Source of the DNA: Limnoperna fortunei
Taxonomy: Eukaryota > Mollusca > Bivalvia > Mytilida > Modiolidae
DNA length: 64,000 nt
NCBI GenBank assembly: GCA_944474755.1
Contig: OX104112.1
Span: 55,347,176-55,411,175 of the forward strand
Reading direction: 5' to 3'
Shown: positions 8,430 through 60,863 of the stretch, piece by piece
Numbering within the stretch: position 1 is the stretch's first letter
Layout of the letters: every line of letters starts with the position of its first letter
Made by a program: the position numbers and the translations under genes
Notes under the pieces: model-generated
Told to the model about the DNA's origin: nothing
The model's database searches: none
The model's input: the letters and a program-made list of their open reading frames with translations, nothing else

Positions 8430-9744
8430 ATGTTGCAAACAATATCATATTTGTCTTTTGTTTGGCCATCAATCCGTATTTTTGATAGGCCGCCTTATTA
8501 AAAATGGGTATTTGGAGTGCTTTTTGATGGCCAATGTATTTCATATCAACTATTATCAAAATTTTAGTCTGGCTTCTGCTCATAAAAGAAAGTAAATTGT
8601 ATGACCATTTTTTCTCATTTATTTGAACCTAGGTAAACTCGTATCACTGATTGTATTGGATTCCTAAACTTCACAAAAATCCATACAAACAGCGTTTCAT
8701 AGCAGGATCGTCTAAATGTACTACCAAAACACTATCGCAACTCCTGACCACTATTTTAACAACAGTAAAAACGGGACTTCAAAAATACAGTGACATTTGC
8801 TACTCCAGAAGTAGAATAAATGAAATGTGGATATTAAAAAATTCAAAAGACCTGATAGACATCTTGAGGTCTGGATATCTTTACCATTGTAACAGCATTA
8901 AAAAATTTGATTTTTCGACACTCTATACGTCCATCCCTCATACGCAGCTTAAAACCAGGCTAAAAGATCTTATAAAACGCGGCTTTTTCATGAAAAACGG
9001 AAAGAGACAATATAAATACCTGGTAATTAGTCATGACAGATCTTACTTCGTCATCAATTACTCCAAAGCTAATACTAAATATACTGAAGACCAAATCTGT
9101 CACATGTTAGATTTTCTAATTGACAACATATTCGTCATGTTTGGAGGACATGTTTTTCAACAGACTGTTGGTATTCCAATGGGTACTAATTGTGATCCTC
9201 TCCTCGCCGACCTGTTTTTGTACTCCTATGAGGCTGAGTTCCTAGAAGGCCTACTGAAGAAGAAAGAAAAGACTCTGGCCCAGACCTTTAATTTCACATT
9301 CCGCTATATTGATGATTTTTTGTCTCTCAACAATGCTAAATTTGGTGACTTTTTACATTCAATTTACCCTAGCGAGCTTGAAATTAAAGACACCACCAAT
9401 ACACTAAAATCGACTCAGGAAAACTACAAACTAGGCTCTACGACAAGCGTGATGACTTAAACTTTCTAATTGCCAACTTCCCGTTCATCGACAGCAACAT
9501 TCCAGCAGCTCCAGCGTATGGTGTGTACATTTCACAACTTTTACGTTATTCTAGATCCTGCGATCGTTATTCAGATTTTCTAGACCGATCACTGCTGTTG
9601 ACTGCTAAACTACTCAAACAAGGGTTTGTTGTACCTAGGTTGATGTTATCTCCCCAGAAGGTCTGTGGTCGGCACCACGACTTAATTGATCGTTACGGGA
9701 AATCAGTGTCTGAAATACGATCTGACATTTTCGCTGAGTCATAG
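8430..9744 (+). pseudogene. Penelope-like element reverse transcriptase, broken
   Basis: The central frame (8651-9460, 269 residues) is a Penelope-like reverse transcriptase. It has YWIPKLHKNPYKQRFIAG near the N-terminus, the A motif FDFSTLYTSIPH, the B region GIPMGTNCDPLLADLFLYSYE and the catalytic FRYIDDFL. A weak upstream trace near 8430-8455 (ANNIIFV in one frame) sits at the spacing expected for the family. A frameshift with loss of some residues near 9415-9425 moves the reading frame. The thumb-like continuation (PAAPAYGVYISQLLRYSRSC) then runs to a stop at 9744. The usual C-terminal GIY-YIG endonuclease is absent and the first ATG is arbitrary. This is a dead copy lying between the two LRP-like relics. 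Confidence 0.85.
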
Positions 9745-13527: not shown

Positions 13528-13589
13528 TTACGGAAGCGTATTAGTGCCACATTTATTTATTTTTATTTTTTAATTTGTCGACTTTAATC

Positions 13590-13915
13590 ATGGAAATTCC
13601 AACATTATTCTTGGAAATATCAACTTTATTCTTGGAATGATCAACTTTAATCTTGGAATTATCGACTTTAATCTATGAAATTCCAACTTTAATCTTGGAA
13701 TTATCGACTTTTATCTTGGAAATTCCAACTTTAATCTTGGAATTATCGACTTTTATCTTGGAAATTCCAACTTTAATCTTGGAATTATCGACTTTTATCT
13801 TGTAAATTCCAACTTTATTCTTAGAATTATCAACTTTAATCTTGGAAATTCCAACTTTTCTTGGAATTATCAACTTTAATCTGGGAAATTCCAACTTTAA
13901 TCTTTAAATTATCAA
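13590..13915 (-). repeat. 21-bp minisatellite, left arm
   Basis: About fifteen units of the type AAAGTTGGAATTTCCAAGAT, read on the minus strand. Variants have GATAATTCC in place of GGAATTTCC. The unit core TTGGAATTTCCAA is itself a palindrome. Confidence 0.9.
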
Positions 13916-14265
13916 CTCAAAAAAAATCATCAATCAACTTACAAAATATTGGTATTTCAGGACATTTTATGTGACATTTGTATAAGGTTTTTAAATTATT
14001 AATCGATTAAAGTGTCAACGTTCCTCCTTAACCCTATCAAAAAGAAAAACAGTTATAAAAATATTATTGAATTTCATTAATATTGCATGACTTTTGGTTT
14101 TTTAAGATAAACAAAAAATTATAATATGAGCGAAGAACAGTTTTCTTTTACTTTATTTAAGAAAGAAATGAATAGTTGTTATGGTAACACCATAGACAAA
14201 GGTTACACCACAGACTACAAAGTAACACCAACAAATAACAAAGAAATTATTATTTTTTATTCCAG

Positions 14266-14531
14266 AAATAAAGTTGGAATTACCGAGATTAAACTTGGAA
14301 TTTCCAAGATTAAAGTTGATTATTCCAAGAATAAAGTTGGAATTTCCAAGAATAAAGTTGGAATTTCCAAGATTAAAGTTGGAATTTCCAAGATTAAAGT
14401 TGATAATTCCAAGTTTAAAGTTGGAATTTCCATGATTAAAGTTGATAATTCCAAGAATAAAGTTGATAATTCCAAGAATAAAGTTGGAATTTCCAAGATT
14501 AAAGTTGGAATTTCCAAGATGAAAGTCGACA
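14266..14531 (+). repeat. 21-bp minisatellite, right arm
   Basis: About twelve units of the same 21-bp sequence as the left arm, in the opposite orientation, so the two arrays can pair along their whole length. Confidence 0.9.
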
Positions 14532-17109: not shown

Positions 17110-18660
17110 ATGTCGGATGTGAATGCCGACGCTGTCTTATCTTGCACCTCGGAGGATGAGGGTGATATTTTAAAGGATCAAGGTGAATCTATTAATCAAA
17201 AAATTTATTCTGATAAAATGAGTACTAGATCATGTGCTTAGGGTTCTGAAAATGTTAATGCTGCAGCATGTAAAGCAGAGTAATTAAGGGTACTGCTATG
17301 AAACGCGAGTTACCGGCAAGTAAATTTGTTAATAAAAATAAGGGTCCAAAAAAGAGCAAAAAATCTAATTCTTTTCAGGACATTGAGGCCTTAAAATCTA
17401 AACTTGGCATTGATACTATTGTTAATAGTATTACATCCTTAACAGGTCTTGTAAAAAATTTTCAAGCATCATCAGTGAAAATGAATGCTAAAACCCCTGC
17501 TTTTAGTACTGGTCACCCACGTTCCTCCACAAATGCTCGCATTACTCCATCTGCAACTGTCACCCGACCAACCCCATCTGCTACTGTTAGTCGCCCCCCT
17601 GTAGATGAGGTTGCTTCAACTGAATATATAACTTCATTGGTTGATGTTCCAATTGATGAGAATGGTAATTATTACCCTTTTGTTAATATTCCTGAAAACT
17701 CTAGGTATGACCTTGATGATTTTGACCATGATTATTTTGACAATCAAGATGATGTAAGTTCTGAAGGAGTAAATCCTCAATTAGCTTTTCAGCAAGCATT
17801 TGATAACTTGAGTGAAATTGATACAGAGGTAGTTAATGACCCTGTAAATGTTCAGATTCCTACATTGTCTGGCAACGTTCCCAATTCTGATGATAATGAA
17901 GCTATGGATGAGCAGGTATGGAATATTCCCCAGTTGAATATGGAGGAAAAAACTGGACCTAAAATAGGGACAGGCTTGGCTAAAGCAGTAAATGCAGCTC
18001 TTACAATCAAATCAGACAAAGATAATATTTCAGATATTGCTAAAAAGTATGTTCGCCCTGAAAATGCGACTTATCTTTGTGCACCAATATGCAACAAAGA
18101 AATATGGAACCCTTTGAGTTCAGTACCGCATGCAAAAGATCTCTCATTACAAGAAGTACAGAAGTATATGGCTTTGGGTTTAGTTCCTATAATATATATG
18201 ATGGACAATTTGTCCAAGAAATAAGAGCTTGATATAGTTTCTGCTAGAAATGGCTTGACTGATGCCATTAGTCTATTTGGCCATGCTTTTTATTTGTTGT
18301 CCAATAAAAGACATCAGAGTTTGCGAAATTTTTTAAATGATAGATATGCTAAAATCTGTGGCAATGACGTCCCAATAACTAACCAGTTGTTTGGGGAAAA
18401 CTGTCTTTCAAAATTAAAAGAAATGGGGGATATCACTAGAATACCTATAGCCAAATCTTTTATAGACCATCCCCTTATTTTTCTCGTTCTGGGAATTTTC
18501 CCTCTGGTAATTTAAACTTCAAAGGCTCTGTCCTCAAACGAGGAGGACAGGGCTTCAGAGGCAATGTTCAAAAGCGAGGCTTCCTGAATCGCCAAATGCC
18601 CAAAGGCAGACGACCAAGACCCTTCATGTCACAGGGCTCACCACAAATCCTTCCAGGAAA
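17110..18660 (+). pseudogene. DIRS gag-like ORF, interrupted
   Basis: The likely original start is ATG 17110, read until a TAG at 17238-17240. A one-base shift near 17282 leads into the long frame 17298-18224 (308 residues: lysine-rich N-terminus, then Ser/Thr/Pro-rich and acidic stretches). A TAA at 18222-18224 interrupts it in frame, and the same frame continues to 18515. Another shift in the T run near 18475 would open a basic C-terminus rich in Arg and Gly (KRGGQGF, KRGFLNRQ, KGRRPRP), as in DIRS nucleocapsid-like proteins. Identity rests on position and composition, not on a conserved enzyme motif. Confidence 0.7.
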
Positions 18661-18669
18661 GGACCAGAG

Positions 18670-20301
18670 ATGTCGCTTTTAGATAAAGGGACAATTTCTA
18701 AGGTGAGGTGTTTGAATTATGATTACTGGTGTAAATACACTTCTGATGAGTGGATTCTTGAGACTATATCTGGGTATAAAATTGAGTTTACTCAGCTCCC
18801 TTGTCAGAAAAAAGTACCAAATGAGATCCCCTTTTCTGATGAACAGGCTGGTATTGTCAATGAAGAGGTCTCAAAGTTACTGCAGAAAGGAGCTATTGAG
18901 CTGGTTGAGAAATCAGATGATCAATTTATTTCTACCATTTTTATTGTACCTAAGAAAGATGGAACAAGTAGACCTGTAATTAACTTGAGGTATTTGAATG
19001 AGTTTGTGGAATATCACCACTTTAAACAAGAAAATTTGTCATTTGCCCTTGACTTGATTCAGAGAAATGATTTCCTTACAAAGCTCGACCTAAAGGACGC
19101 GTACTTCCACATTTTAATCCATCCTGATTACAGAAAGTACTTGTGTTTTTCCTGGAAGGGTAATATATATAATTTCCGTGTTCTTCCTTTTGGATTGTCT
19201 TCATCCCCTAGAGTTTTTACTAAGGTGTTAAAACCCATATATGCAACATTTAGGCAGAATGGAATAAGATGTTGCTATTATATAGACGATTCTTTGATCA
19301 TGAATCAAGATCATTTAATATGCAAACAACAAACTCAGTTAATTGTCAATGAAATGGATTCCCTTGGATTTTCTATTAATGAGTCAAAGTCAATACTCAT
19401 TCCATCTCAAAGATTAGAGTTTTTTGGTGTTATTATAGATACAGTTCAATTTAAAGTGTTCCTTACAACTGAGAAAATTGAAAAACTGAAAGCTTTATCA
19501 GTTTGTCTGCTAAATGTTCAAAGGATAACTGTTAGAGAGTTATCTTCCTTGATAGGATTATGTGTGCATGCTTTCAATGCAGTAACTTTGGGTCCTTTAC
19601 ATTACAGGGCTTTAGAAAGGGACAAAGTAAAGAGTTTAGCTAACTCAGACAACAATTATGACTCTTTAATGGTTCTCTCTGCTGACTCTGTTAAGGAGAT
19701 TAAATGGTGGTTGGATAATGTAGAAAAATTAAATGGAAAACTTATTAGACCAAATTCAGTTGATGCATGGGTAGAAACAGATGCATCCAGTATTGGCTGG
19801 GGTGCACATATGAAAACATCTTATGCTGGGGGTAGATGGTCAGCTCTAGAATCCACTCATCACTTAAATTATTTAGAGCTATTGGCAGGTTTTCTGGCAT
19901 TGAAATCTTTTTTCTCCTTAAATACAAAAGCTATTCATATTGGAATTAAGTCAGATAATTCATCTGCTGTTGCTTACATAAATAATATGGGTGGTATGAC
20001 ATCTATTTCTATGGATGGTTTAGCAATAAAGATATGGAACTGGTGCACAGATCACAATATCTTTTTAACTGCACAATATATTCCTGGCTTATTGAATACT
20101 GATGCAGATTTTATGTCTAGACAGTTTAGAGATTCTTGTGAGTGGTCATTAAAAAGTGACATTTTTCAAAGAATATGTAAACACTTTTTTGCACCAGATA
20201 TAGATTTGTTTGCATCCAGGCTTAACAATAAATTACCATTTTTTGTTTCCTGGTTCTTCGACCCAGAAGCAAAATTTACAGATGCTTTCTCTTTTTCATG
20301 A
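18670..20301 (+). pseudogene. DIRS reverse transcriptase-RNase H
   Basis: The 543-residue frame is a DIRS-type reverse transcriptase followed by RNase H. RT landmarks are IVPKKDGTSRPVINLRYLN, FLTKLDLKDAYFHI, LPFGLSSSPRVFTK and the catalytic YIDD at about 19277-19290. The RNase H part begins at WVETDASSIGWGAH and contains LNYLELLAG and IKSDNSSAVAYINNMGG. The frame ends at TGA 20299-20301. The same frame then continues (ECEPYIFPPFCLIGKVL) into the recombinase, so this TGA is probably a nonsense change from a Trp codon. ATG 18670 is the first in frame. The enzyme would make the element's cDNA if intact. Confidence 0.9.
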
Positions 20302-26754: not shown

Positions 26755-28032
26755 ATTTATAACTTGTGCGCACGAGTTGCAAACTTGAGCGCAAGAGTTT
26801 CAATTCTTGTGCGGAAGAGTTACTAACTTGGGCGAACGAGTTTCAAATCTTGTGCGCACGAGTTACTAACTTGCGCGCACGAGTTTCATATCTTGTGCGC
26901 ACGATTTACTAACATGTGAGCACGAGTTACAAACTTGTGCACACGAGTCACTAACTTGTGCGCACGAGTTACTAACTTGAGCGCACGAGTTTCAAATCTT
27001 GAGCGCACGAGTTTCAAATCTTGTTAGTATCTTGTGCGCGCACGATTTTTAAATCGCTATGATTCCGTAAATGGTCATGTGAGCTTATGCGATCAGTATG
27101 CGTCCGTCGTCGTCCGTTCATAATTTCAAAAATATTCTACCCTGAAACTACTTATACCAATTTGACTGAAACTTGGCAGGAATGATACATGACATGTTGG
27201 CAACAAACTTTCTTCAGTTTGAATCGATCGAATGAAAACATGGCCGCTGTTAGTAAAAAAAACATAGGTTAAAGTCACCTTAAATGGCTAATAACTCAGA
27301 AACTATAACAGATAAGGAAAATCTGATGTATCTTAGGCTCTCCAAAATAAAGTTCTACATAAGTCTCCACTGGAGCAAACTTGCCAGATGAGCTCTTTTA
27401 GTAATTATGTCCCTTTAAAGGTAAAAATTTAGTTGTTCATATTTTTGTCCTATAGAATGAAATTTATTGTAGATAGAGAATAGCTTTTGCTTTCTTAAAC
27501 CTCATTTAGCTCTTCAAAAGTCTCTATTGGGTCGAAGTTGTCAAATGGCCCCTTATAGAGTTTATGGCCCTTTAAAGGATAAAAATCACGGTTTTTAATG
27601 TTTCCCCCTATTAAATGATTACTTTTGCAGATAAAGAAAAGCTGTTGCTCTACTCATTGTTCAGCTCAAGTAGCTATACAAATGACTACATTAGGTTGAA
27701 GTCGTCAAAGGACCCTTTTAGTGGTATATGCCCCTTAAAAGGTCAAGAATCGGGTTATTGAGATTATAAACTCGTGCGCACAATTTTTTAACTCGTGTGC
27801 ACAAGATTTGAAACTCGTGCGCTCAAGTTTAGTAACTCGTGCGTACAAGATTTGAAACTCATGCGCTCAAGTTAGAAACTCGTGCGCACAATTTAGTAAC
27901 TCGTGCGCACAAGTTAGTAACTCGTGCGCACAAGATTTGAAACTCGTGCGCTCAAGTTTGCAACTCGTGCCAACAAGTTTGAAACTTGTGCGCTCAAGTT
28001 TGAAACTCGTGCGCACAAGTTATAATTAATTT
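26755..28032. mobile_element. foldback element with GTGCGCAC-palindrome arms
   Basis: Both ends read TTATAACTTGTGCGCACGAG inward, in opposite orientation. The left array (about 26762-27040) and right array (about 27770-28025) are tandem units of 21-23 bp, typically ACTTGTGCGCACGAGTTACTA with TTTCAAAT variants. Every unit contains the palindrome GTGCGCAC or a one-base variant. The roughly 700-bp centre carries a separate 165-bp repeat and no transposase. This is the same architecture as 13528-14577 with unrelated sequence. Confidence 0.75.
27300..27760 (+). repeat. three degenerate 165-bp units inside the foldback centre
   Basis: Units at about 27300-27430, 27465-27600 and 27628-27760. Each runs from AGATA.RGAAAA..., through GTCT(C/A)..., ...GTCAAATGGCCC-like text, to CCCTTTAAAGG and TAAAAAT. 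They have diverged more than the arms. Confidence 0.5.
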
Positions 28033-30691: not shown

Positions 30692-31944
30692 TTAATTATT
30701 TCTGAATGCCATTCCCCCTGGGTATCCATAACCATCATTTGATGCATCTCCATAAACCCAAAGACCAAATGCGGTTCCACCAACATGCTTTAAACGATGC
30801 ATTCCTGGAGAAACTGCAAAACTAAATGTGCTGAAATTATCTGTTCCGTGCGAGATATTGGTGATGTCTACTGTTGTAATAGGATTTCCATCGAGAAAAA
30901 AGTGGTCAATATGATCTTTTGTGACCGTTACGCTCACATAGCTGGTGAAATCTGTCGGTACAGCAAAAATATACTCGGACAAGTATTGATTGATGCCATG
31001 AATAGTCATCATGTACGCATCGCTAGCCAAAGGACTTGTGATCTCGTGCGGATACAACATCACCATGATGTCACCCGTTGATTTCACAAGTGAAATTTTC
31101 TCGTGAGTAAAATCAAAATATTCCCTTGGTTGTAAAATTTTTGTCGTATCAATGTCACTGACTGTGAAGGTTACGGTGGCAACAGTTGCAGCTAACATTC
31201 TGACGGTACTTTTTGGACGCGAATAGATAACAGGGATAATATATTCTTTGTCTAACTGATTAACAGGCAAAATCATTTCCATGAATGGATTGCAATTAGA
31301 ACTGCTTTCTATATAGTTGCACTTGTTCCCACTTACAACAAATACTGGTTTTGTTGATGTGATAAGTGTTCCAGTAAGGTCCTTTGCATGGGAAATTTGT
31401 AATGTATCGTAGTCGTTTAATACAAGAACGGCACTACTGTTGTTTTCATATGGCTTACTATTTATCGTGACTGGTCCCTGTTGAGTTTTGACAAGTATAT
31501 GTATTGTGGTATCAGGATAATACGGATTGACTGTTATTATGCTTTTAGCGTATTCAGAACTCGGTTGAACCGACGAAACATTAAAAGATGGAATTATGTA
31601 TTCTGTTGAGGCGTACTTTGCAGGTAGCGCCAAGTAACCTTCATTGTATTGGGAATTTCGTAACATGCAAAATATACCAATGCTTTCGTTTGAATGAACT
31701 GTCACACCTTGTGTCGAAATCCCATCTGCAGTCACTATAACGGAAGAAGATAAATTGAAAGTGGAATATTGTGTCGTAATTATAGATGTTCTTGTCACAC
31801 TTTCGAGTTTGTTATTATTCTCAAAGTTATAAGTTATAGATAATTGGTATGGAATCTCTAAAGATACTAAAAGCATATATGGTATTGCATAGCCGTTCAC
31901 GTCCACCTTTGGAAAAAATAGATCAAAGTCTTTACCAAAAGGAC
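30692..31944 (-). CDS. exon 8: IgGFc-binding N-terminal domain
   Basis: 417 codons including TAA. It starts after TTATTTCAG with GPFGKDFDLFFPKV, the usual 'GKDF' opening of IgGFc-binding domains. Further family-like features are STQGVTVHSNESIGIFCMLR, EGYLALPAKYASTEYIIPS, KPVFVVSGNKCNY, PFMEMILPVNQLDKEYIIP and a C-terminal GLWVYGDASNDGYGYPGGMA. It carries several N-x-S/T sequons, as expected for a secreted protein. The open frame extends upstream to 32008 as a run of Asn, but that is the intronic (ATT)n tract and not protein. The domain appears complete, with no TIL or VWD modules following it, unlike FCGBP. Confidence 0.9.
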
Positions 31945-31956
31945 CTGAAATAATAA

Positions 31957-32002
<46 letters not shown>

Positions 32003-35000
32003 ACACACATATGGTTATGTGTATTTGCAGATAAAAGAAAATCTATAGATTTGGAGATTAGGAGATTGGAGTGGCTGAAAGTATAAAATATCAAATAATT
32101 CCTGCTAACGGTGCCATATGGTGGTATATGGCCAGCAGTATCATGAAGTATTTGATAAAATGTTATTTTTACAGTAATTGTAGTACATTATTCTTGGACA
32201 TTTGTAAATATTGTTATAGTAATTTTGTTACAGCTAAATGTCGGCGTAAATTTAAATAGATTTTCTGATGCTGTGCATGATTCTCTAGTAAATTTGCTTT
32301 GGAAAAACAATTCCTTGGGCCTTCAGGTCTGGTTTGCATAACAGAACCATTACGTTACTAATTATGAGAACCTTTGGTTTGACAAAGTTATGTATTAAAG
32401 GCAATCTATTAATCTATGCAAATTTTTCACTTGTGTACTTATTTACATACATCTTATTTTAAAAACGTGGAATTTAAAATCAATATTTTGCTAGTCATGT
32501 AATGGTTTGAATATTGTCGTATAAACAATAATTAGCGCTATACCTTTAGTTGAAAGTGCAGCAGTTGATGATGTAGGATAAACTTGGGATATAAGGTGAA
32601 CATTATTGTTACACAGGCTACCATTACAACAGATAAGATGACTGGTAGCTCTTTTATTACGAATTTCCCGTCTGCCAATAATTGGAGCAGCTATGTAATT
32701 CGACTCGCACAACTAACAATATATTTTTAAAAAAATTAAATAAAAAACAGATATTCTTTTATTTCTACGTAATATTCAAACCGCTTGAAAGGTGTGGAAA
32801 AAATCCTCGTCATTAGTGAATATCATTGTTGATTGGATAAAAATAGAAACGTAACAAACACAAACATGACGTGATAAATTATATAACTTCCATTTACCGG
32901 GTATGGATGAATTTGGGGTTAGGATGATTTGTTTTTGATTTCGCAAATTTGCTACTTTTTTAAATTAGAGAAATACAATCTTAAAATTACTACTCCAGGC
33001 TTATTTGATTTCATTTCTGCAATCTTGATTGTAGAAATCTGATAATCCAATCACAACAATGTAAGATAATATATATTTCAATTTGTACCATTTGGTATCA
33101 TTACATGTTGGTTTACTTATTGTTTTGTAAAAATATTTCAGGATGGATCATTGTCCTGTTTATTTTTTATAGTGTAATGATAACATGTTCTTACAAGAAG
33201 AAAAGCAGTCTTCTTCAGTCTTTTCTATGAACTATTGTTTTAATTTTTTCATCCCACTCTATTTTGTACATCACGACCGTATTGGTTAACATTGATCTCA
33301 CATGATCTCATGTCACATTTTATTTCAAATAATGTTTAAACCTTTAAACAGATAACTGTAACAGCATATTGTTACAAGTCTTGCTAACTATGTCCTTTGT
33401 ACAAGGAAGCCAAATAAAATATTATTATATCAATAACTTTTGTATGAATTTCTTCCTTCTTAACACCATCTTTTTAAGAAGGAAAAAAGAAGCAAACAAT
33501 AGGTGGATAAATAAAAATACGGACAGTGGTCTTCTAATACTTGCGATATGTTATTTGTTTAGTTGATATTACTTACTGGATGTAGTAGAATATTTTTGAG
33601 GTACATTTTTGAATGATGTACACGCGTACATTGATAAGAACTATACACATTATACCAAAATATTTTTCGGAGCATAATTTCTACATACATGTTTGTCTTT
33701 GCAACCACTACTGTAGTACAATTCGCCAAAGTGAGACCTTTCTTCCATGTAACACAGCTAAATTAAGAAACATCATATATATTTGGCGATGTAAAGTAGT
33801 TCCCACATTACTGCATGAGTTTTTCCTTACTTTTAATACAATGTATACACTTTAAAACGTTTACCGGCCACAAAGATTTATTTCATAATTTCAATTAAAA
33901 CAACCCTTTGACATTCGGCTGCTTTAATTTAACCAGACTGTTTTGTCATAGATTTATTCAGATCACATCAGGGTTGACAAGAAACCTTACAACGAAAACC
34001 TTATCTTTTAAATATTTGGTTTTAAGTATTGAATTTGTCAACGTGAAATTTCAGCAATCACTTACAGTAAAATTAAAATAATGAAAAATATTTGCCTCGT
34101 AAAGACGCAACTGTGTTATGTTTGTCGGAATATATTGTGCGACTCCTTAAGTTGCGGTAAAGTCGTTATGGGCTATAATTTTAAAAGTATTAGTCATTGT
34201 CTTAGGCTTTTCACCATTGGTTATCTTGAGATTTTAAATGGTCTCATTGCCAACGTTTGTCACGTCGGTGACCTTGAATGTTGACCTTGAAGATTGTTAT
34301 CGAAATAACCCTCAAACGTAAATGATAGACAAAAAGTCAAATCATTAAAAATGTTTGTAAAGTAAAAACTGTCTTGTTTTGAACGAACAAATTGGATGAT
34401 TCCTGAAGTAGCGTAACTCCTGCAGCCATATTCTCAAAAAATCGTAAATTTACACTTACGTGTAAAGATAAGATATTCGTAACTTTACGTTTACGTCTAC
34501 GATTGTTCGTATTCTCGAAAGTAATCGCAGTTTTACACGTAAAATAGCAATATTACGCTTTGCAGGTAGCGTCATCACGCGTGCTCAATTACTTCTTTCA
34601 CTTTGGAAGTAAACGTATTGAAAGAGAAATAATTACCTCAAATTACTTAAATTACAACAGTTTTTAATTGCATAACCCCACTAATAAATAAATAAATACA
34701 TAAATATAAATAAATAAGTCATGATATTAATTTTTGAATAGGTGTTTTAGAAAGTAATCTGTCAATTTACTATTACGTGGAACAAGACCCCTTTTAAGGT
34801 TACGTTCCTTCAGTGTAGAAATTAACGATTAGTTTCATGGTATAATAATGTAAAAAATAACCTAAAACCATTTTAACACAAATAAAACAGTATGATGTAA
34901 AAGCGCAAATCATATAGAAAACTTCCGGAACATTTGTTAATGAATACGGTTGTTGTTTCTTTCTTTCTTTTAAAGTTATAAATTTTTGTGAGATGTTATT

Positions 35001-38000
35001 CCCCTTGGGTAAAAAAAACATTTTTCAAAATATTTGCAAATTTTTTATTATGTTTTTTCGTCGTTCTATGTCGCGTGCAACAAAATCAATGATGCTAATT
35101 AATGAATGTCTTGAAAAATGATTTCTCTTTGCAAAAATTATGAGGGAAGATAAGACTTACAAGCGCTCAGGAGCAGACGTAAGTTTACGATCGATTTTAC
35201 ACGTAACTTACAACTACGAATCTTTGAGAATATTAAAACAGACGTAAACTTACGCTACGTTTAAAATTACGTCTGCAGAACATGAAAACCACAAGTCGTA
35301 ATGACGCGAGGTCTTCACTATCGATCATTTTGAATTTGACAATCAAATACTGTCAAACCGGAAAGTTCTTTTTTATATTGACAAACGTGCCTTATAAATA
35401 TATATTTTTTAAGATTTTAGAGAACATATATTGCATTGTTCTATTATATGTCAAGAAAGTTTAGTCTCAGTTTAGAAAAACCCATTTCGGTTGAGAGCAA
35501 CTAAATATTTTTGGTTCAGGACAGCATTTTGTAAAAACATTTACTTCTTGTTATCAAATATCTCTTTCGAGTTTGAAAAGTAAGGGTTTTTGTGTCAACA
35601 AAAGTCATTAACAATCATATAATTTAGTCTATATCGGTCACAAAATTGCCCACCAACAGTAAATGTAATTAATTTATTACATTATTACCTCATGTCGGTC
35701 GCAAAACATTACCGTCCTGCATTCTTCTGGTGTTACGATGCCGTCACAATTGAAGCATATATTTCCTGGATTCTGTGAAATTGCTGAATGAAGTCATAAC
35801 CATTTTATGCGATAAATATTATTATGTATACTTTTTCGTGATCGCTTTTGTATATGTTTCAGCTGAACTACTAAGTGAGTAAATAAATTGAAGAAATATT
35901 GATAAATCAATATAAATGAATCATAATATGTACATTTTTGCATATTTAATAAATATTCAGCAGTATTATGGATTGCACTTTTTTTATTATGATATTTTCG
36001 TTGTATTATTTCGTAATATTGTTAACATATGACATATATCGTGGCGTTCACTTAGACATCCGGTTATGTTTTTAAATTGAATTAAGGAATCTTTTGGCAT
36101 AACGATATCTTCTGACAGCGCAAATTATTTCTTAACATATGTGAGATTTGTGAATGAAAATCTATTGAATGTTCCTACCTTGTTCCTCACATCCAAAGTT
36201 ATTGCAAAGATCGGAGTGACAACATTTAAAGCAAGGTTGTGTTCCGTTTATTTTTATCGTATTCATCGTGCATGTCTGGTAGCAATGTAAAACAAAAATT
36301 GATATAAATAGTGGTAATTGACCAATCTTTAGTATCAAAATAATAAAAAAATTCTTTCCAAAGAAATTTTTACCACGTACATATGTGTTTTTTCAATGCT
36401 GTTAACTTTTATAATAAGAAGTTCGAAAGTCAAGTACCGTTCACTCGATTTACACAAATATTAAAACTAAACTTCTACAAATAATCATATCTAGTTTGCC
36501 TTCAATTAGCTTCGCAATTTCTGCGGGAACATTTGAACATTATCTGTTCATTCCATTTTAAGATTTCAGCAAAGAAGATTTTAGAACATAGTTTTCAATG
36601 GTTTCAATGCAAAATAGAGGTCATTTGTAAAAATTTTAAATCACTATTAAAATTGTTTTTAAGCCGTTCATGCAAACACCAGGGTACATACGGTTGGTTG
36701 CAAATCGCCCAATGAAACGTTTGCAATGTTTACAGACGACAATGAGGACCAAGGAATCTGAGGCAGACAATATATCACACTTCCTAATTATAAAGTTAGT
36801 TAGAATCGTTCTATGTTATTTGTAAAAAGACTGAATCAATACAGTTTTTTTATTTCCTGAGCCAATACTTTTCCTCTAATGCAATTTAAAACAGCATACT
36901 TCTGAAATATTCCAAACTTGTGTTTGTTAAGTGTTTTTTGTAAAGGCACTTTCAGTATTTCTTCACCTTTTTATGAGTTAAAGTTTTTAGGAGGATGATA
37001 TTGTATTGCCATTTTATATGTGCAACGTAAATGTACATAAGATGATTAGGTTTTTATGCAAAGTTTTGATTTTTATGTTAGTATGCAAATCTATATTTTC
37101 TTCTTAGAGTTTACAAATTAAAGAACAGAAGCATTAGATCTTGTTGAATAATGCAAAACTGTTTTAAATTCATATAAAATTTATCTGTAGCTAGGAAACA
37201 CATCATGGTATCCAAAATCCCTTTACGTCAAAATAATCAAATCCTAACATCATTTAAATAAAGTAAACATTTTTTTGCACTAATGCAAATTTTACTGCTG
37301 TATAAATGTAAACTTTTGCGATAGGTATGAATAAATTTACCCCTGGTGCCATGCATCCACTGCTGTATAGAACTTCGTCTGTTGTCTGTTGTATATAACG
37401 TTTCACTGCACATATCTAAAATGACAGAACAATAAATTTTTAAATGTGGTTTCTTGCATTTTTCAAATTTATAAATAAATAAAAAATATATAAATAAATC
37501 TTATTTATATTTTACAAGATTGGTATTTGATATAATCTTCGAAAACTTTACATTTCACGATCTTTAATATTTCTGCTCTAACCATATAATGCTCGGTATT
37601 GTACATTGTATTCTAGTGAATGATAGAATGTTATTTATCCTTTAGTTTGTTTTTTGGGATTAAGTCTTTAATGCCACTTTCAGCCATTTACAGATATATC
37701 ATAGGATCCATTTTTGTTGGGGAGATAACCGACGTACACAGAGAAAAACCCCGGACGTTTGGTAGTAAAATTGGCAATTCATATCAATTAAGATTGGAGT
37801 CGAGTTCACCATGCCCGCAGCGAGGCTCAGATCCGCAATCTCAGTGTTGACAGACCACGTGATGAACAGTAGACGTATCTTAACCACTCGGCCACGATGG
37901 CCCGTTTTCTTTAGTGATTGAGAGTTTCTAAGGCTTAAAGCATTTGAAGGTAGACGTGAAATGAAATAAAATACATTGTAAAAAAGAAGGCTTGTGTTTA

Positions 38001-39150
38001 AAACTGTCCGTTAAATCTATTTGTATACAATTTTTCGCGCACGTTGTCATTTCTTGACTTTATATATACCTCTTTATATGGTGAGCCTCAAAACGTAAGT
38101 TTTAGTTTCTTCATAGATACTTATTTACCTGATCTGCAGTACATTCTTGAACATGCTCGCAGAACCTTGGGTGTTTTACGTTTAAACAATTAAAGCAGTA
38201 AAGTGCTGAAAATGAAGATAGATCGTTCTTTTAATTACTCAATTGTCATTATAGACTTTTGAACCTGTATTATAACAGCACGTTTTAGAATAACTAAGAG
38301 TGTCCGCTGTCTGAGGCCACCGTGTATATCTGTGTATACAATAAAACCAGGAGAAAGTTTAAAATATTATAACTGTTTAAACTTTCAGAATAAATTAACT
38401 ATAGGGCATTCCAACCTCAAGTTTGTTTGGTTTTAAGACATTTTCAGCAAGTTTCGAACGTTGCGAACAAGTCTTATCCAAAGAAGCGAGTATCATGTAG
38501 AAACCCAAGGATAAGATGAATTGCAGCACATCATGTCTGCTTAAAACGCTTTTATGCAGCCTCAGTATTTACACACCGATGATCAATAGCAGACGACTAA
38601 ATACCTTACCACGTGAAAACTCTAGTCCCTAAAGTATCTTGTTGTATTTATTTATTAAATTATTGAGAAAGTCAGCCATCTTTTCAAACATTCTGCAAGT
38701 ACTTGTTTAGCAAAATGCTCATAGTGGTTTCGAAGTGTAAATTGTATTAGTAAAGACCATTTCGTGTGTGTTCAGTTTTACCTGTAGTGCAAATAAGGCT
38801 GATCGCCGTATTTTTGTTTTTGTCCACTTACGATACTATTAAATATTTAGGTATTAACTATAAAATATTTATCGTTTCAAAATATCAATAGAATGAACTT
38901 ATATGTAAAAACTGAACTGCAAAATGCTTGGTTTTGATATTCAATAAATAAAAAGATGAAAAATAAGGTATTAACATTAACATTATTTATCAAGATATTT
39001 TAAAATCAAGAACCAGCAAACATATTCATTCACGTACATTAGACACAAAACTAACGCATAATTAAACTACTCGCCTTCTGAATAGGTAAACAGATTCAGC
39101 ACGAACAAAAAGGTTATCATCAACAAACCTACAATAAAATTCATTGACAT
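30692..39150 (-). CDS. secreted protein: signal peptide, two Ly6/uPAR domains, IgGFc-binding domain
   Basis: Eight-exon model on the minus strand: 39150-39075, 38205-38129, 37415-37341, 36275-36179, 35765-35689, 33757-33689, 32712-32544 and 31944-30692. The lengths add to 1893 nt, 630 residues plus stop, with frame kept at every junction. Exon 1 encodes a hydrophobic signal peptide. Exons 2-4 and 5-7 each build one Ly6/uPAR (three-finger) domain ending in CCxxxxCN. Exon 8 is an IgGFc-binding N-terminal domain. Introns 2-7 are GT-AG; intron 1 appears to be GC-AG. IgGFc-binding domains are known from FCGBP-type mucins and many invertebrate secreted proteins, and Ly6 domains mediate protein contacts. 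A role in recognition or adhesion is inference. A 5' UTR exon probably lies upstream. Confidence 0.8.
31961..32000. repeat. (ATT)n microsatellite beside a 3' splice site
   Basis: About thirteen perfect units in the last intron of the Ly6-IgGFc gene. The tract lies about 14 nt upstream of the acceptor AG (31946-31945). Confidence 0.95.
32544..35765 (-). CDS. exons 5-7: second Ly6/uPAR domain and linker
   Basis: Exon 5 (35765-35689) gives NICFNCDGIVTPEECRTVMF and CDRHE. Exon 6 (33757-33689) gives LCYMEERSHFGELYYSSGCK and DKH. Exon 7 (32712-32544) gives LCESNYIAAPIIGRR, KRATSHLICCNGSLCNNN and a Ser/Thr-rich linker ending STK. Together they have exactly the ten cysteines of a canonical Ly6/uPAR domain, including the closing CCNGSLCN. 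Junctions 5/6 and 6/7 are phase 0. The intron before exon 5 and the one after exon 7 are phase 1. Donors are GTAATA, GTATGT and GTATAG. Joining exon 7 to exon 8 reconstitutes the Gly before PFGKDF. Confidence 0.8.
34430..35280. mobile_element. inverted-repeat element in intron 5
   Basis: The two ends are inverted and similar: CTGCAG..., TATTCTCAAA, then mixtures of ACGTAAACTTACG and TTACACGTAA motifs, at about 34430-34580 and 35165-35280. The unit motifs are themselves near-palindromic. No coding capacity. It is probably a non-autonomous DNA transposon. Confidence 0.5.
36179..38205 (-). CDS. exons 2-4: first Ly6/uPAR domain
   Basis: Exon 2 (38205-38129) gives ALYCFNCLNVKHPRFCEHVQ and ECTADQ, the first Ala codon being split with exon 1. 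Exon 3 (37415-37341) gives ICAVKRYIQQTTDEV and LYSSGCMAPG. Exon 4 (36275-36179) gives TCTMNTIKINGTQ, CFKCCHSDLCNN and FGCEEQ. Splice signals are TTTCAG/GTAAAT, TTTTAG/GTAAAT and TACCAG/GTAGGA. The cysteine order and the closing CCHSDLCN mark a Ly6/uPAR domain with about two extra cysteines. It may sit on the surface of the secreted protein. Exon cuts fall at the same places as in the second domain. Confidence 0.8.
37645..37907 (-). mobile_element. tRNA-derived SINE in intron 2
   Basis: Near full length on the minus strand: head with A box GTGGCCGAGTGGTTAAG, a degraded B box, body with the family's CGACTCCAATCTTAATTGA stretch, and tail GGCTGAAAGTGGCATTAAAG. It lies between exons 2 and 3 of the Ly6-IgGFc gene, in the same orientation as the gene. 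Confidence 0.8.
39075..39150 (-). CDS. exon 1: signal peptide, GC donor
   Basis: ATG at 39150-39148 opens MSMNFIVGLLMITFLFVLNL followed by FTYSE and the first base of a Gly/Ala codon: a short N-region, long hydrophobic core and polar end, typical of a secretory signal. The only donor that keeps phase with exon 2 is GC (AAG|GCGAGT), giving Ala-Leu-Tyr-Cys. The alternative GT four bases further would break the frame. An acceptor-like site (TTTTAAAG) lies just 5' of the ATG, so a non-coding first exon is likely upstream. Confidence 0.65.
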
Positions 39151-56819: not shown

Positions 56820-57443
56820 TGTTGTAAAACATTTCAGTGACTCTGTAATTTGGTATCTCCCTAGTATAATGGTATAGTCCAAAGTTGGGTATATAAACCG
56901 TTGCAGCGCTAGTATTGAGGTCTTTTGGTCTTGTCGTTTGAGATTAGTTCTCCATTGGTACTACCTGTGTTATAGAAGACGGTGATTGAGTGCAGAGACA
57001 GAAAAGAGAACAATATGTAACCTCGAGTTAGATTCTTCAATTGTTATCTGCTTACCTGAATAAGGTTCGCAGGGGTACTGTGCACGGGATAAATAGTGCA
57101 CTGGTTAACTGTGCACGAGATAGAGAGTGCACAGGATAAATAGTGCACGAAACAGTTAGTGCACGGGATAAGTAGTACACAGGATAAATAGTGCACGGAT
57201 TGATTGAGCACCGGATAGATAGTGCACGGGTACATAGTGCACTTATAAGTTGTGCACCTGATACGGACCACTAGCAAGCAAGAAAGCGTTCAGTTAAGTG
57301 CAACTGCCACTGTAAAGGCTAAACACTCAGAAATCGCAACGTTACCTCTGAATTAAATCTGGTAAATTGCCGAAGCGGGCATATTCCAATATCCAGAGAT
57401 ATACTCTGGTACGAGCTCAGAGATCACGACAGAGTACGTGATA
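56820..57443 (+). repeat. left LTR
   Basis: Begins TGTTGTAAAACATTTCAGTG and ends ...AGAGTACGTGATA. TATATAAA at 56890-56897 is the likely promoter. 57080-57260 is an array of 15-16-bp units (GTGCACAGGATAAATA type). Confidence 0.85.
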
Positions 57444-60178: not shown

Positions 60179-60863
60179 TGTTGTAAAACATTTCAGTGAC
60201 AATGTAATTTGAAATCTCCCTAGTATAATGGTATAGTCCAAAGTTGGGTATATAAACCGTTGCAGAGCTAGTATTAGGGTCTTGTCTTTTGAGATTAGTT
60301 CTTCATTGGTCAGGTCTACCGTTTGAGCAGAAGTGTGTGTTACGGACGAAGAGTGCAGAGACAGAAAAGAGAACATTAGGTAACCTCGAGTTAGATTCTT
60401 GGATAGTTATCTGCTTACCTGAATAAGGTTCGCAGGGGCATATACACTGGTTCTCGGGTGCATAGGCAAATAGTACACTGGTTAATTGTGCACGGGATAG
60501 ATAGTGCACAGGATAAATAGTGCACGGGGTAGAGAGTGCACATGATAAATAGTGCACGGGGTAGAAAGTGCACAGGATAAATAGTACACGAGACAGTTAG
60601 TGCACGGATTGATTGAGCACCGGGTAGATAGTGCACGGGCACATAGTGCACTTATTAGTTGTGCACCGGATACATAGTGCACGGACCACTAGCAAGCAGG
60701 AAAGCGTTCAGTTAAGTGCAACCGTCACTGTAAAGGTTAAATACTCAGAAATTGCAACGCTACCTCTGAATTAAATCTGGTAAATTGCCGAAGCGGGCAT
60801 ATTCCAATATCCAGAGATATACTCTGGTACGAACTCCGAGATCACGACACAGAGTACGTGACA
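60179..60863 (+). repeat. right LTR
   Basis: TGTTGTAAAACATTTCAGTG to ...AGAGTACGTGACA. TATATAAA at 60249-60256. The GTGCAC array at 60470-60684 is longer than that of the left LTR. Antisense frames across the array are artefacts of the 15-16-bp repeat. Confidence 0.85.

Follow-up and report, generated by a model that had tools for sequence, protein, structure and literature searches.

The stretch of Limnoperna fortunei DNA analyzed here (64,000 nucleotides, hereafter the window) corresponds to C2:55347176-55411175 of the genome that we searched (1.335 Gb, 285 contigs). On its minus strand, positions 39150-30692 hold one eight-exon gene, the exons of which join in frame. The features are as follows, where LU denotes a Ly6/uPAR domain and C1-C10 its ten cysteines.

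Exon 1, 39075..39150, minus strand: ATG and signal peptide (MSMNFIVGLLMITFLFVLNLFTYSE), GC donor, phase 1
Exon 2, 38129..38205, minus strand: first part of LU1, C1-C4, phase 1 in, 0 out
Exon 3, 37341..37415, minus strand: middle of LU1, C5-C6, phase 0-0
Exon 4, 36179..36275, minus strand: end of LU1, C7-C10 and two extra cysteines, phase 0 in, 1 out
Exon 5, 35689..35783, minus strand: first part of LU2, C1-C4, phase 1 in, 0 out
Exon 6, 33689..33757, minus strand: middle of LU2, C5-C6, phase 0-0
Exon 7, 32544..32712, minus strand: end of LU2, C7-C10, PIIGRR motif, Ser/Thr linker, phase 0 in, 1 out
Intron 7, 31945..32543, minus strand: 599 bp, the site of an EGF exon in six paralogue genes, with none in the window gene
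Exon 8, 30692..31944, minus strand: IgGFc_binding domain (PF17517, 147 bits) and stop codon, at which the end of the exon was placed

The original prediction had joined seven short exons in frame and phase to a long IgGFc exon. All eight exons were found, and the phases at the seven junctions (1, 0, 0, 1, 0, 0, 1) agree in 7 of 7 cases. The spliced translation gives a predicted product of 636 amino acids, so that the length of 630 residues first proposed is replaced. Introns 2-7 have GT-AG borders and intron 1 has GC-AG borders (AAG|GCGAGT). Exon 2 scored 66 bits against the exon profile, but exon 2 itself was part of the training set. Within intron 7 of the window gene, three-frame translation showed no EGF pattern, and there was no exon-profile match at 12 bits.

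The predicted protein starts with a signal peptide, followed by two LU domains with the ten-cysteine pattern; a short Ser/Thr linker then leads to a single IgGFc_binding domain. The same reading (signal peptide, two cysteine-complete LU domains and one IgGFc domain) had been made at the outset, and both the gene models from Mytilus and the paralogues within this genome uphold it. We are highly confident of this architecture and of the membership of the window gene in the family described below. The signal segment is hydrophobic, with a best 19-residue mean of 2.28 compared with at most 1.21 elsewhere. Given that the C-terminus is polar and that the rest of the 636-residue product stays at or below 1.21, the hydropathy scan revealed no hydrophobic membrane anchor.

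The IgGFc_binding match exceeded its cut-off of 25.6 bits by a wide margin, covering residues 322-618 of the protein and positions 2-297 of the 297 in the profile, and the protein ends 18 residues past it; in the whole-genome search, the PF17517 match for exon 8 lies at C2:55377924-55378814. To our knowledge, bivalves have no IgG, and the name IgGFc_binding therefore says nothing about the target. When the whole protein was compared with Pfam, Toxin_TOLIP (28.9) was above its cut-off of 21.2 and UPAR_LY6 (20.5) was below its cut-off of 24.8. As a separate piece, LU1 was above both cut-offs (Toxin_TOLIP 29.2, UPAR_LY6 26.2), and LU2 was below both (16.8 and 15.1, respectively). LU2 nevertheless aligns end to end with the matching part of two Mytilus models, P0001 and P0002.

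According to section 4 of PMC6600238, LU domains are defined by ten plesiotypic cysteines in a fixed order. LU1 has the ten canonical cysteines at residues 29, 32, 41, 47, 53, 72, 78, 94, 95 and 100, with an extra two at 91 and 105, and LU2 has exactly the ten canonical ones, at 118, 121, 130, 136, 142, 159, 165, 191, 192 and 197. For membership, we considered an Asn after the tenth cysteine and a length of 60-90 residues; both domains carry LCNN, with the Asn after C10, and their C1-C10 spans are 72 and 80 residues. The LU domains are flanked by phase-1 introns (introns 1, 4 and 7), and each is made up of three exons, the phase-0 introns between them falling one codon ahead of C5 and of C7. 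Two exons per LU, with an intron at the tip of loop 2, are described in PMC6600238 as typical, not obligatory. The three-finger fold is putative for the LU part, given that the structure model of P0001 is poor (pLDDT 49, with residues 1-254 under 50, the LU part included). The IgGFc part is predicted to be all beta with middling model confidence, and structure comparison gave no safe fold match for this model.

Both LU domains resemble the Ly6/uPAR family, including uPAR and GPIHBP1 (the best PDB sequence match, E 9.3e-4), in their ten-cysteine pattern, the Asn after C10 and the phase-1 flanking introns. However, the window gene differs from this family in having three exons per LU rather than two, in showing no anchor and in joining its LU domains to non-LU domains. 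The IgGFc_binding domain is shared with vertebrate FCGBP (IgG Fc-binding protein). As described in PMC10206775, FCGBP continues into vWD-C8-TIL units, whereas the window protein has no such units after IgGFc, ends with that domain and carries the LU domains in front.

Two NCBI gene models of Mytilus galloprovincialis, both uncharacterised proteins, match over 99% of the spliced protein: P0001 (LOC143048046) with 41% and P0002 (LOC143048713) with 34% identity. A search with the LU part of P0001 added M. edulis P0005 and the shorter M. trossulus P0006, which is limited to the end of LU2 plus the IgGFc domain. Like the window gene, P0001, P0002 and P0005 have a hydrophobic start, two LU domains, both of which align, and IgGFc_binding in one chain. 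They differ from it in an EGF-like stretch between LU2 and IgGFc; Pfam EGF was above the cut-off only in P0001 (22.3 vs 21.5), and the hEGF match in P0005 and the EB match in P0002 were both under the Pfam cut-offs. The shorter M. edulis models P0003 and P0004 are without this stretch. All of these sequences are predicted gene models. Judged from them, the LU-LU-IgGFc layout is not unique to the window gene, and the domain order first proposed recurs in Mytilus, in three models with an EGF-like stretch added.

PF17517 has 76 matches genome-wide, of which 19 were read with about 10 kb each and eight others with short flanks, together with five extensions. Ten genes, the window gene among them, have LU-type exons upstream and in order, with not all six LU exons within reach in each. 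Besides the window gene, these are the C2 neighbour, C8:33.50, C8:33.52, C8:33.53, C14:1.44, C8:71.52, C8:71.56, C11:7.70 and C5:80.73. An EGF exon precedes the IgGFc exon in six of them (the three genes at C8:33.50, 33.52 and 33.53, the C14 gene, and C8:71.52 and 71.56), and none was seen with the exon profile in the window gene, the C2 neighbour, the C11 gene or C5:80.73. Among the 19 loci read, four more have an EGF exon but no LU, and six have neither in the stretch read. One locus with EGF, L017, is close kin of the LU-bearing L018 and showed no LU exon in a further ~14 kb.

The exon profiles were trained on LU exons from an earlier search of these same genes; the strongest test of the family exons is splice position, for which we set aside, among 58 exon matches, 6 from the window gene and 10 EGF exons. 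Four of the LU exon types begin a single codon ahead of a cysteine; in these, the paralogue acceptor AG was at exactly that distance from the cysteine in 30 of the 30 tested, and an AG at twelve neighbouring offsets occurred in only 0 or 1 of 30. First-part LU exons have GT exactly at the match end in 11 of 12 cases. We also searched the whole genome with the window LU pair. The reach of this search is limited, and its counts are lower bounds; with E values of up to 10 it yielded 61 exon matches, of which 34 lie within 25 kb upstream of a same-strand IgGFc match, 27 lie near none, and 0 lie near IgGFc in the wrong order only. The chance of such upstream placement is about 0.0007 per LU match; the window gene and its tandem neighbour account for 11 of the 34. 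Both the acceptor positions and this placement agree with the initial claim that the arrangement is beyond chance. The upstream same-strand LU matches mark 12 of the 76 IgGFc hits, namely 0 of 26 at 185 bits or more, 9 of 24 at 110-170 bits and 3 weaker ones. Two of the weaker hits are on C12, and the third is a fragment at C8:33543217, the LU match of which may belong to the C8:33.53 gene.

The first LU exon of the tandem neighbour was located in the whole-genome LU search only, at C2:55345316-55345426; it is the LU exon of the neighbour nearest to the window gene, with about 32 kb between it and the stop codon of the latter. The IgGFc exon of the neighbour carries a frame-shifting deletion of about 170 bp, and part of the divergence between the two copies may therefore be decay. 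With this proviso, dN/dS between them (Nei-Gojobori, own script, exons 1 and 2 left out) was 0.34 over the 167 codons of LU exons 3-7 and 0.21 over the 324 codons of the IgGFc part that both copies have, with an average of 0.25; exon 4 alone gave 0.91 on 32 codons.

Taken as a whole, the locus is probably best explained by one eight-exon gene for a secreted LU-LU-IgGFc mosaic. We also considered the possibility of two genes, an upstream secreted LU-LU gene and, behind it, an IgGFc gene that has a start of its own. Elsewhere in the genome, sets of LU exons do exist with no PF17517 match nearby, and the one-gene model is a prediction from genomic sequence; however, the exon 7 donor and the exon 8 acceptor are of the same phase and the Mytilus gene models span both parts, which makes two genes very improbable. 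An incorrect exon 1, the real signal peptide exon lying further upstream with a GT donor, seems unlikely. Only a small proportion of splice sites have a GC donor, which speaks for this alternative, and GC is the sole in-phase donor of exon 1, which has three nested ATGs. However, when 6 kb upstream were scanned for hydrophobic phase-1 exons with a fair donor, exon 1 was the sole candidate within the hydropathy and donor limits, its donor otherwise fits well, and the junction ..EA|LYCFNC matches ..SALTCFNC and ..NALTCLNC of Mytilus. It is also rather improbable that the window gene is a member of a tandem family that has fallen silent or is in decay. The broken neighbour and the lack of an EGF exon in the window copy would fit such decay, but the window copy is open throughout with every splice site in place, and the averaged dN/dS argues against it even though this includes the decay of the neighbour and the high value of exon 4.

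Returning to the single secreted mosaic, its role is a matter of greater doubt. We tentatively favor a bridging recognition or adhesion molecule at a mucosal or haemolymph surface, as the leading possibility rather than a probable one. The protein would be exported, its paired LU heads would bind a protein ligand via their fingers, and the all-beta IgGFc part would act as a tether to mucus or matrix or bind a second ligand. This preference derives from the contact habit of LU domains, the all-beta IgGFc model, and reports on mucus and pathogen-associated molecular patterns (PAMPs). Section 4 of PMC6600238 describes protein-protein contacts as usual for LU domains, via the loops and the concave face. 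Sequences annotated as IgGFc-binding have been reported in oyster mucus and pediveliger larvae (PMC6337334), where they are mostly labelled zonadhesin-like and thus possibly have another architecture, and such sequences are regulated after PAMP challenge in the Manila clam (PMC7430831). An expression table for M. chilensis includes a PF17517 gene with a value of -26.55 (PMC11817969). The same gene could have a different role, in gamete or seminal recognition or as a structural part of mucus or byssus, and we regard this as a substantial but minority possibility. Recognition is no worse a fit to its clustered family and its relatives linked to fibrinogen. A function in fertilisation exists for some LU proteins, which would suit the gamete version of this alternative. 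FCGBP/zonadhesin-like proteins of limpet and oyster are discussed as adhesives in PMC7333891 and PMC6337334, which would suit the structural version.

Next, a tree was built from 33 IgGFc domains of this genome and Mytilus. All 15 LU-bearing rows fall inside one set of 22 rows (97/93), which also holds rows without LU seen; outside it are eight rows of the strong-scoring group and L021, L022 and L027. The closest row to the window gene is its neighbour, as a sister (100/100), and the pair is sister to P0001/P0005/P0006 (98/94). On this branching, the IgGFc domain of the window gene and those of the Mytilus LU-LU-EGF-IgGFc group are of common ancestry. P0002/P0003 branch elsewhere within the 22-row set, and more than one LU-bearing lineage therefore seems to be older than the split of the two genomes. 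The LU label requires 7 changes on the tree, which was equalled in 146 of 500 shuffles; the shuffles often match because the LU-bearing rows are mixed with rows in which no LU was seen, through losses or stretches that were not read. Most simply, there would have been one early LU fusion with EGF, followed by spread and later losses. Before the split from Mytilus, an LU-LU cassette may have been joined through phase-1 exons to an IgGFc or EGF-IgGFc gene. The tree and the gene positions suggest that the fused gene then multiplied, partly in tandem, and the window lineage would have lost EGF, whereas certain copies, for example L017, would have lost LU.

LU pairs also occur beside fibrinogen exons. 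On C3, two LU-LU loci without a nearby PF17517 match are followed by fibrinogen-type exons, in an order that the phases allow. In the first, at 16.178-16.185 Mb, the exon for the end of LU2 has the same PIIGRR motif. Its donor (AAAG|gtaaaa) and the acceptor of the exon after it (ttgcag|GATATC) are both of phase 1, and this second exon begins like a fibrinogen domain, with GYPTECADLASDRDGVYTIFPKG...WT, which scored 12.8 bits, under the Pfam cut-off. Another 12 kb along the same strand there is a Fibrinogen_C match (58.9 bits, profile 143-219), separated from these exons by a hAT transposase fragment. In the second locus, at 16.23-16.24 Mb, the same start exon comes after the LU2 exon, here with a broken frame, and is followed by two clear Fibrinogen_C exons (56.6 and 55.1 bits). 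Fibrinogen exons are common in the genome (at least 165 matches); by our own arithmetic from this count, a chance Fibrinogen neighbour within 25 kb on the right side is expected for well under 1 locus in 100. The LU-LU and fibrinogen exons on C3 are candidate single genes. LU1- and LU2-type matches with no partner identified were also found at C5:83.98, C13:42.95, C13:11.56, C5:72.03 and C14:40.74, and inspection by eye beyond LU2 at C13:42.95 (~7 kb) and C5:83.98 (~4.5 kb) revealed only Thr-rich linkers.

Molluscan FREPs combine an Ig-type domain with a fibrinogen domain. The C3 loci are like FREPs, in layout only, in placing N-terminal binding domains before fibrinogen, but they have an LU pair in place of the Ig-type domains. 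In open-access papers, judged largely from titles and abstract starts and with most subscription papers outside this scope, we found no description of an LU-IgGFc fusion and no paper on mollusc Ly6 with IgGFc-binding, bivalve IgGFc_binding or mollusc fibrinogen-related proteins with Ly6. By title, the open-access literature on Ly6 and Mytilus contained no mussel LU protein, and that on the LU domain in molluscs concerned conotoxins only. Within this literature, the original statement that no characterised protein has this architecture held; the LU and IgGFc domains are known, and their combination appears to be undescribed.

We know of no antibodies in bivalves, and expanded, shuffled secreted binders are therefore candidates for a recognition repertoire. 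In mussels and their kin, the locus points to a family of secreted mosaic proteins that is as yet undescribed. We place slightly short of even the possibility that in these bivalves LU-LU is a genuinely mobile cassette for recognition at the N-terminus, encoded by six exons with phase-1 introns on either side, that would have been joined at least to IgGFc (with or without EGF) and to fibrinogen. If this is true, then these bivalves would have a modular set of secreted receptors with a layout comparable to that of snail FREPs. The conclusion of PMC6600238 denies LU domains the rank of a bona fide mobile module, with few exceptions named. The LU-IgGFc family and the fibrinogen-linked LU pairs on C3 may be a counter-example to the view expressed there.

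On contig C3, two loci (the pair L034 and L037) carry the same kind of LU-LU exon set as the window gene, followed by exons of a fibrinogen domain:

C3:16177862-16197141, LU-LU exon set, then fibrinogen domain exons on the same strand
C3:16230764-16243099, LU-LU exon set, then fibrinogen domain exons on the same strand

As far as it was read, the phase from LU-LU into the fibrinogen exons is compatible at both loci, and in the copy at C3:16230764-16243099 the frame is broken in the first fibrinogen exon. From the genome sequence, the fibrinogen domain is a candidate second partner of the LU pair, besides IgGFc. Further LU1/LU2-type exon matches were found at five positions, each with no nearby IgGFc match:

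C5:83981302
C13:42946498
C13:11557524
C5:72028611
C14:40743702

The motif P-x-I-G-x-R and a later Arg in finger III of LU2, which resemble a basic or processing site, occur in all nine aligned copies (window 32544-32712 and its paralogues); the pattern deviates in copies L014 and L036, which lie outside this alignment. A tandem neighbour of the window gene lies beyond the window:

C2:55329746-55345426, loci L009 and L010

Its IgGFc part shares 83% identity with that of the window gene, and its IgGFc exon carries a frame-shifting deletion of approximately 170 bp.

The window also contains mobile and repetitive sequences:

57077-57242 and 60470-60684, two arrays built from similar GTGCACGGGATA units
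18511-20301, reverse transcriptase ORF
8651-9460, ORF resembling a reverse transcriptase
13581-13917 and 14269-14526, minisatellite array pair, <1 kb between arrays
26760-27024 and 27761-28021, minisatellite array pair, <1 kb between arrays
31959-32000, (TTA)14 microsatellite

The open frames between the GTGCACGGGATA arrays, which match zinc knuckle, aspartyl protease and RNase H, constitute a retroelement. The ORF at 18511-20301 matched RVT_1 (76.9 bits), and the one at 8651-9460, which had no Pfam match at 0.001, reads like another reverse transcriptase. Within each minisatellite pair, the units appear reverse-complementary. A gap of 14 bases separates the acceptor of exon 8 from the start of the microsatellite, and a change in the repeat length could affect splicing.
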